DNA from: Lota lota
Lineage: Eukaryota > Chordata > Actinopteri > Gadiformes > Lotidae
Direction of reading: 5' to 3'
DNA length: 64,000 nucleotides
Assembly (NCBI GenBank): GCA_026745465.1
Contig: JACYXH010000410.1
Span: forward strand, 1,320,001 to 1,384,000
Within the stretch, counting starts at the first letter, position 1. Every line of letters begins with the position of its first letter. Below are positions 5,940 to 44,818 of this stretch, piece by piece. A program made the position numbers and the translations under genes. The notes beneath the pieces were generated by a model. That model did not search any database. It had not been told where the DNA came from and was given only the letters and a program-made list of their open reading frames with translations.

Positions 5940-6362
5940 TCAGATGAACAGGAAGAGCTCCAAGTCTTTGGCGTGCAGCTTCTGGGCCAGGTTTTGGATG
6001 CGGCACATGCGCACGTTCTGGGCGTCGCCCACGCTGTACACCCGGAAGATGTGGTAGCGTTCGCGCTCCTTCAGGGCGAAGTCCAGCTCGTTGGCCGACA
6101 GGTGGATGAAGGCCTTGTCCCGCTTCACCGTCGACTTCACCTCCACGTACACCTCGTGGTCGGGCCCGGGCTGCGGAGCCGCGGGGAAGGTCAGCTTGAA
6201 GTCGTAGGGCTGGCCGCTCTCGGCCTGCTGGTTGCACCAGCTGACCTCCGAGGGCCGCCCGGCCGCATCGCCGTCCCTCCAGTGGCACAGGAATGAGTTG
6301 ACCAGCTGCTCCCCCCACGTCCCGATGGCCTCCAGGTCCCCCGGGTCGTCCGTCAGCACCAC
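5940..6362 (-). CDS. Giant gene exon 48: C-terminal NO VEIN/DUF3883 domain with PD-(D/E)xK-like residues
   Basis: The last exon (140 codons plus stop) encodes a complete DUF3883/NOV_C domain at residues 3033-3172. Visible are the [14 protein letters not shown] helix with an acidic residue (about E3050), [10 protein letters not shown] (D3086), [12 protein letters not shown] (E3106-V-K3108), and the conserved [20 protein letters not shown] followed by RVYSVG. The E...YD...ExK spacing is that of the PD-(D/E)xK nuclease fold, and the catalytic-type residues are all present. Nuclease activity itself is inference. In plant NO VEIN the same domain is also C-terminal. The stop is TGA at 5940-5942. 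Confidence 0.9.
   Translation of the reverse strand: MVLTDDPGDLEAIGTWGEQLVNSFLCHWRDGDAAGRPSEVSWCNQQAESGQPYDFKLTFPAAPQPGPDHEVYVEVKSTVKRDKAFIHLSANELDFALKERERYHIFRVYSVGDAQNVRMCRIQNLAQKLHAKDLELFLFI

Positions 6363-44818: not shown

Follow-up and report, generated by a model that had tools for sequence, protein, structure and literature searches.

The locus and its gene

We analysed a 64,000-nucleotide stretch of the genome of the gadiform fish Lota lota (assembly GCA_026745465.1, contig JACYXH010000410.1, positions 1,320,001 to 1,384,000 of the forward strand), hereafter called the window. It contains a long gene on the minus strand, identified through database entries as the fish gene wu:fj29h11 ("protein NO VEIN"). 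In a model guided by relatives, the whole gene comprises 48 coding exons (44817 to 5940) that encode approximately 3,166 residues and end in the only stop codon; all 47 introns have GT-AG borders. A long minus-strand gene was also traced here, with no outside evidence, by an ab initio gene finder combining splice-site weights and codon usage. Residues 1-3231 of the homologous protein of Gadus macrocephalus (P0001) align exon by exon, in order, to 44817-5943, accompanied by some weak off-line matches originating from low-complexity segments. An earlier version of the model shared 2648 of 3095 aligned residues with this Gadus protein.

A Pfam scan, made on an earlier stitched version of the protein (3,091 residues), revealed three families above their cut-offs: (i) OST-HTH (PF12872; E 2.1e-7), corresponding to the LOTUS domain, (ii) SACS (E 1.5e-11, 45 bits, covering only 63 of 247 profile positions) and (iii) NOV_C (E 9.3e-15). 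The NOV_C profile has one match in the whole genome (575 Mb, 867 contigs), namely the present gene, which is single copy by this measure. The coordinates of the gene and its parts are presented in Table 1.

The initial annotation had proposed that LOTUS, ATPase and NO VEIN modules are joined in one chain, and the relatives bear this out: the ATPase residues occur in 120 of the 120 best relatives, of which 111 also contain the NO VEIN region, and many relatives are database models in which one protein, about 3,000 residues long, contains all three of the Pfam families. The exon numbers originally given for the three parts (1-3, 20-22 and 48) agree with the present model as well.

Table 1. Features of the wu:fj29h11 gene in the window.
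Feature	Position	Strand	Basis or remarks
Whole coding gene wu:fj29h11 / protein NO VEIN, 48 exons, ~3,166 residues	5940..44817	-	splice/codon model and relatives
LOTUS 1, exons 1-2, residues 1-68 (weak)	44459..44817	-	Pfam E 0.0013, below cut-off; conditional E 0.0013
LOTUS 2, exon 3, residues 114-181, minimal (mLOTUS) type by sequence	40416..40619	-	
Low-complexity segment, residues 366-620	38002..39189	-	in-frame coding minisatellites (33-bp x 5.2; 15/84-bp units)
~700-residue region, residues 629-1337	29641..37975	-	conserved in hemichordate and mussel; no Pfam match; fold prediction unusable
Acidic linker, residues 1380-1455	28354..28946	-	
Half collinear with TmtA profile PDLC03972, residues 1459-3166 (~1,700)	5943..28342	-	
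ATPase motif I ELIQNADD, residues 1512-1519, across exons 20-21	27516..27930	-	
ATPase motif II NNETGF, residues 1545-1550	27421..27438	-	
ATPase lid motif GQKGIGF, residues 1575-1581, across exons 21-22	26934..27348	-	
Exons 32-33, local frame departure	18476..19271	-	model residues ~2172-2200 unreliable
Exon 48, NO VEIN (DUF3883) PD-(D/E)xK-like domain, residues 3027-3166	5943..6362	-	
E3044 (6311), D3080 (6203), E3100 (6143), K3102 (6137)	exon 48	-	

The ATPase and the NO VEIN domain

The ATPase carries the motifs ELIQNADD, NNETGF and GQKGIGF, in which nine residues are identical in all 120 best fish relatives; of the 226 listed relatives, 224, 225 and 220 conform to the respective motif patterns, the 225 being those with NNExGF. 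All ATP-binding residues had been ascribed to this domain. The motifs are indeed kept across the relatives, but at the motif II aspartate the family has asparagine. The bacterial homologues examined also have Asn at this position, one of them (L006) reading NDE where the others read NNE. Searches of PDB sequences with the ATPase retrieved TRAP1 (at 0.001) and sacsin (at 0.025). MORC ATPases share the GHKL ATPase logic, but no MORC-type match was found by Pfam in the present protein.

In exon 48 a glutamate (within a helix), an aspartate and an E-x-K motif stand in the register of a PD-(D/E)xK site, and the predicted structure of this exon contains the PD-(D/E)xK core; its fold resembles that of PD-(D/E)xK nucleases, in keeping with the nuclease-like C-terminus proposed at the outset. 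Of the 210 listed relatives that have the DUF3883 domain, 209 retain the E-D-E-K set recognised in it there, as do 111 of 111 with the region among the best 120 fish relatives. The residues were thus correctly chosen, although their numbers (E3050, D3086, E3106 and K3108) were six too high for the present model. Searches of PDB sequences with the NO VEIN domain yielded nothing credible. DUF3883 is named a novel restriction endonuclease (REase) domain in a passage of PMC3710099. Judging from the modelled fold and the E/D/E/K set, the NO VEIN domain is a putative metal-dependent nuclease.

The LOTUS domains

LOTUS 2 is a solid match (best Pfam stretch, residues 124-181) and LOTUS 1 a weak one, which agrees with the "one or two" LOTUS/OST-HTH domains of the initial annotation. 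In the literature, eLOTUS domains are described as LOTUS domains with a C-terminal extension that binds Vasa. No such extension was recognised in the sequence of LOTUS 2: conservation is lost after residue 183-185 and the chain is Pro/Gly-rich beyond, and for this reason LOTUS 2 was assigned to the minimal type.

A hidden Markov model (HMM) built from LOTUS 2 (conditional E < 0.01) was applied to 121 rows, i.e. our model and its 120 best relatives. Two LOTUS copies were found in 70 rows, three in 22, one in 11, four in 4 and five in 2. Past residue 181 of our protein, no alignment window reached 15% against LOTUS 2 (hhalign), and no OST-HTH match was obtained in six segments of region 285-1145 (five of the model and one of Anabas). 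The hhalign comparison for LOTUS 1 was disregarded on account of misaligned rows. Searches of PDB sequences with LOTUS 2 gave nothing below E 0.6. The present protein shares LOTUS domains with MARF1, TDRD5, TDRD7 and Oskar but differs from them in that no Tudor, LK-nuclease or SGNH domain was found in it by Pfam. The words "ATPase", "HSP90" and "REase" are absent from the main text of the 2010 survey of OST-HTH domains.

Homology to TmtA and comparison with sacsin

The resemblance to bacterial ATPase-nuclease defence proteins, suggested from the first reading of the sequence, is one of homology, since the half of the protein from the ATPase to the NO VEIN domain is collinear with the profile of TmtA and related to bacterial proteins encoded in defence neighbourhoods. 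TmtA of the PADLOC library is a name that we take to denote the anti-phage protein Tiamat. Profile PDLC03972 matched the ATPase piece (9.7e-86) and exon 48 (1.9e-22) in its own order, with the NO VEIN domain at positions 1183-1290 of 1302. The Gadus protein matched it at E 1.5e-132 (442 bits, best stretch reaching position 883), and the protein of the hemichordate Ptychodera did so at 1.5e-142 in a single stretch covering positions 22-1283 of 1302; an internally duplicated protein of Artemisia matched TmtA at 5.2e-204 in five stretches. The gene and TmtA share the motifs ELxQNADDN, NNExGF and [11 protein letters not shown]. With the GHKL motifs present and the NO VEIN domain aligned to the corresponding part of the profile, the protein is a member of the NO VEIN-type TmtA group. 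Of 14 named control genomes, 7 had a match to PDLC03972 at E 0.001, but a threshold of 1e-20 left none.

Two sacsin-like open reading frames (ORFs) of the same genome (L027 and L028), searched with the same PADLOC library, served as a control. On PDLC03972 they obtained 122 and 161 bits, with best stretches within positions 44-322. By blastp the model matched a bacterial homologue (L011) at 4e-83 over 1007 residues, and the sacsin-like ORFs at 9.5e-6 and 2.3e-8 at best. The gene is separated from sacsin by both of these measures, but not by PDLC03966, on which the sacsin-like ORFs score as high. Because the sacsin-like ORFs match TmtA profiles strongly, a match of the ATPase alone is no mark of a defence protein; and because the ATPase part alone does not separate the two, we base family membership on the collinear order, the presence of NOV_C and the closeness to bacterial proteins built in the same way.

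Sacsin has full, repeated SACS domains together with J and HEPN domains. The present protein contains one partial SACS match and, by Pfam, no J or HEPN domain. The description "sacsin-type ATPase" holds for the Pfam family, which is the same, but not for an identity with sacsin (SACS domain 45 bits, whereas the two sacsin-like ORFs reach 560 and 530 bits). The similarity of sacsin to the gene is confined to the ATPase, and no NOV_C was found in the two sacsin-like ORFs. A six-frame comparison with sacsin (ATPase exons of the gene, 2e-12 and 1.7e-9; open sacsin-like loci, 1.6e-16) was set aside, since it was not like for like: in such a search the gene is split into its exons, whereas the sacsin-like loci offer long open frames.

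As a separate observation, some of the TmtA profiles in PADLOC recognise the sacsin-like ORFs at 1e-80 to 1e-107, and annotation with these profiles can therefore give the name Tiamat to sacsin-type proteins.

Bacterial homologues and their neighbourhoods

A scan of one genome per species, with a 95-residue ATPase core as the query, detected 11 loci, six of them 58-64% identical over the 95 residues and the others 40-50%; a 552-residue ATPase query found no relative in the genome collection. Full ORFs, 1,477-1,686 residues long, are present at seven loci; two further loci are truncated at a contig end, and the remaining two contain shorter ORFs of 960 residues. Two of the proteins (L011 and L003) carry SACS plus NOV_C by Pfam, and an HMM from our own alignment, with the L011 row included, recognised NOV_C in five of the seven full-length ORFs, L006 and L007 being the exceptions. 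TmtA shares with the fish protein a collinear ATPase, middle part and C-terminal NO VEIN domain on PDLC03972, but the bacterial ORFs differ in length, and no LOTUS domain was found in the two that were scanned by Pfam.

The bacterial homologues lie near Gabija, SIR2-HerA and restriction genes. PADLOC was applied to 12 neighbour genes from 6 of the 11 loci, and 11 of the 12 matched something: GajA of Gabija (2.1e-234) next to L011, SIR2 (1.1e-138) and HerA (7.8e-232) next to L002, LmuB-like and HNH genes next to L004, and helicases at other loci. A gene for a NERD-UvrD helicase lies directly downstream in five of the seven full-ORF loci (L002, L003, L004, L005 and L011); it may form, together with the homologue, a two-gene version of the system. 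At L006 the second downstream gene was tested and matched nothing, and at L007 the following gene is encoded on the opposite strand. Within the phylum of L011 the family was present in 6 of 200 genomes at 1e-20, the centre genome included. This patchy spread and the company of the neighbourhoods fit a defence gene.

In a tree of 19 ATPase cores the nearest relative is Gadus (96% identical over 403 columns). The eukaryotic and bacterial rows are separated at 92/92, a split that is not starred and has long branches, and it was not used as proof of origin.

Distribution in animals and plants

The fish protein was used as a query (best 120 of 617 matches), as was the hemichordate protein (best 120 of 603, limited by length, four rows being unnamed). 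With the former, every named row belonged to a ray-finned fish; with the latter, the matches included amphioxus, lamprey, sharks, rays, chimaera, ray-finned fish, molluscs, an annelid and echinoderms. Among the matches listed, Pfam recognised LOTUS in the hemichordate, two starfish, a periwinkle, a freshwater mussel, sharks and bony fish, and the LOTUS-2 HMM added lamprey and more molluscs; it found none in amphioxus, the annelid, the chimaera model and several molluscs. Among the 116 named rows of the hemichordate search, sharks and lamprey were present but tetrapods and lobe-finned fish were not, which suggests that the gene may have been lost on the way to tetrapods. Four copies are listed for the mussel Sinanodonta (P0182, P0195, P0202 and P0206), three of them with consecutive gene numbers; we read these as a local expansion of the kind frequently seen in immune genes.

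The fish members of the wu:fj29h11 family agree in their domain order, the present protein being 89% identical to that of Gadus over query residues 1380-2100, but vary in LOTUS copy number (0-5 by HMM) and in low-complexity repeats. The region of residues 629-1337 is also conserved in the hemichordate and the mussel. The plant NO VEIN-type protein of Artemisia has the same SACS plus NOV_C core but no LOTUS by Pfam. Passages of PMC12409356 report "Tiamat" matches in plant metagenomes that lay on plant genomes, and NO VEIN is not named in them; these matches are probably plant NO VEIN genes.

One listed protein, labelled as that of Lepidogalaxias salamandroides (P0002), shares 87% identity with the present gene in the ATPase region, against ~66-75% for the majority of the other non-gadiform fish listed; mislabelling or contamination is suspected.

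Possible function

PD-(D/E)xK domains cut nucleic acid, and GHKL proteins close a clamp using ATP. PMC12247748 describes several proteins whose LOTUS domains recognise G-quadruplex RNA. Taking these three properties together, we propose RNA recognition, an ATP-driven change and cleavage: the minimal-type LOTUS domains would bind structured (G-rich) RNA; the GHKL domain would bind ATP and close or dimerise, its signal passing through the long middle part; and the C-terminal PD-(D/E)xK domain, metal-dependent through E/D/E/K, would then cleave nucleic acid. The most likely use would be defence against viral or transposon RNA or DNA. The gene, its architecture, the homology, the predicted nuclease fold and the conserved residues are documented here, whereas RNA binding, ATP gating, cleavage and the defence role are what we infer. 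With a confidence that stops a little short of even, we regard the gene as representing, in animals, the NO VEIN-type TmtA (Tiamat) family: its product would be an ATPase-nuclease that bears a LOTUS array at its N-terminus and a linker region specific to animals, most likely acting in nucleic-acid defence. A bolder version is possible but doubtful: a predicted catalytically intact Tiamat-type effector, rewired by LOTUS into an RNA-triggered ATPase-nuclease of antiviral or anti-transposon function, which would predate the mollusc-vertebrate split and have been lost towards tetrapods.

Several observations weigh against this defence reading. The experimentally tested Tiamat may belong to any of the PADLOC TmtA models, and its mechanism is listed as unknown in reviews. 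The sacsin-like ORFs match PDLC03965 at 5.4e-101 and 1e-107, in the ATPase part only, and obtain 299 and 266 bits on PDLC03966 against 284 for Gadus; our confidence was slightly lowered because of these matches. The motif II aspartate of TRAP1 (Hsp90 type) is Asn here, in Asn-Asn-Glu, so that the ATPase departs from the Hsp90-type GHKL signature. For the NO VEIN domain, the best Foldseek match (1.9e-3) fell short of the E <= 0.001 level, and some unrelated folds stood lower down the list. LOTUS 1 lies under the Pfam cut-off, and LOTUS was not found by the LOTUS-2 HMM in 12 of the 121 rows. The reading frame is irregular in exons 32-33, where the model is open only through a weaker acceptor. 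Oskar's eLOTUS domain did not bind RNA in the hands of one group (a passage in PMC5458760), and plant NO VEIN is described as a nuclear cell-fate factor.

This last description belongs to a different account of the gene, as a factor of development or gene expression like Arabidopsis NO VEIN, in which the nuclease fold would serve RNA processing or a nucleic-acid-binding platform and have no part in defence. The shared core of the Artemisia protein is in its favour, as are the single copy by NOV_C and the listing in very many fish; but the lack of a tetrapod among the 116 named relatives is odd for a core developmental gene, some molluscs have multiple, partly neighbouring copies, and the catalytic residues are kept. 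We consider this account unlikely. A germline function is rather unlikely: LOTUS would place the protein in RNA granules (nuage), where it would process or destroy transposon or maternal RNA, as germline care and not antiviral immunity. Oskar, TDRD5, TDRD7 and MARF1 act in the germline, and a NO VEIN-like transcript is female-biased in an acanthocephalan in a passage of PMC12690905, but the missing Vasa-binding extension of LOTUS 2 speaks against it.

That the protein is a sacsin-like co-chaperone, with an ATPase for protein folding, is improbable. Both proteins are placed in the SACS family by Pfam, and TmtA profiles recognise the ATPase part of the sacsin-like ORFs as well, but the low SACS score, the scores and extents on PDLC03972, the blastp values and the lack of J and HEPN domains all separate them. 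A chimaeric model, in which two or three adjacent genes would have been merged, would accord with the great length, the many introns and the frame irregularity; it is highly improbable, as the same order is found in one protein in many fish, sharks, molluscs, starfish and the hemichordate (many of them predicted models themselves), and the Gadus protein covers the whole locus in order.

In the literature searched (preprint servers and most subscription papers excluded), fj29h11 is named in one paper only, PMC12690905, which deals with an acanthocephalan and states, in one of its passages, that no homologue had been characterised before in metazoans. Any two of the terms Tiamat, sacsin, NO VEIN, TmtA and DUF3883 occur together only in PMC3710099 within the same literature; the link between Tiamat and NO VEIN may be in print elsewhere. 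The gene may encode an overlooked genome-defence protein in fish. Should the animal protein function in the way that its relatives in bacteria may, it would represent an unstudied branch of innate immunity common to bacteria, plants and animals. Plant NO VEIN, known from development, would gain a concrete biochemical hypothesis, that of an ATP-gated nuclease, and Tiamat would gain eukaryotic relatives whose attached RNA-binding-type module hints at the trigger.

Other features of the locus

Within the gene, the region of residues 629-1337 contains no named domain by Pfam, and the predicted structure of the middle region was too poor for use (mean predicted local distance difference test 57.4, predicted template modelling score 0.34). 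In exons 32-33 the sequence departs by one base from the frame of the relatives at each of two places (near 19261-19271 and at 18476-18481); this may reflect an assembly error or a real lesion, and the assembled copy may be imperfect.

The repeat units of the coding minisatellites of exon 5 (38157-38687) differ between Lota lota and Gadus. At the end of exon 7 there is a 39-bp minisatellite of 14 copies (35381-35931), composed of [16 protein letters not shown] units; since it stays open in the exon 7 frame, it may be read as coding by gene finders. Upstream of wu:fj29h11, a gene with two HMG boxes is located on the minus strand at 57499-59551 (HMG_box E 4.4e-15, two stretches); its boundaries are approximate, and by our reading of its sequence it is probably TFAM-like.
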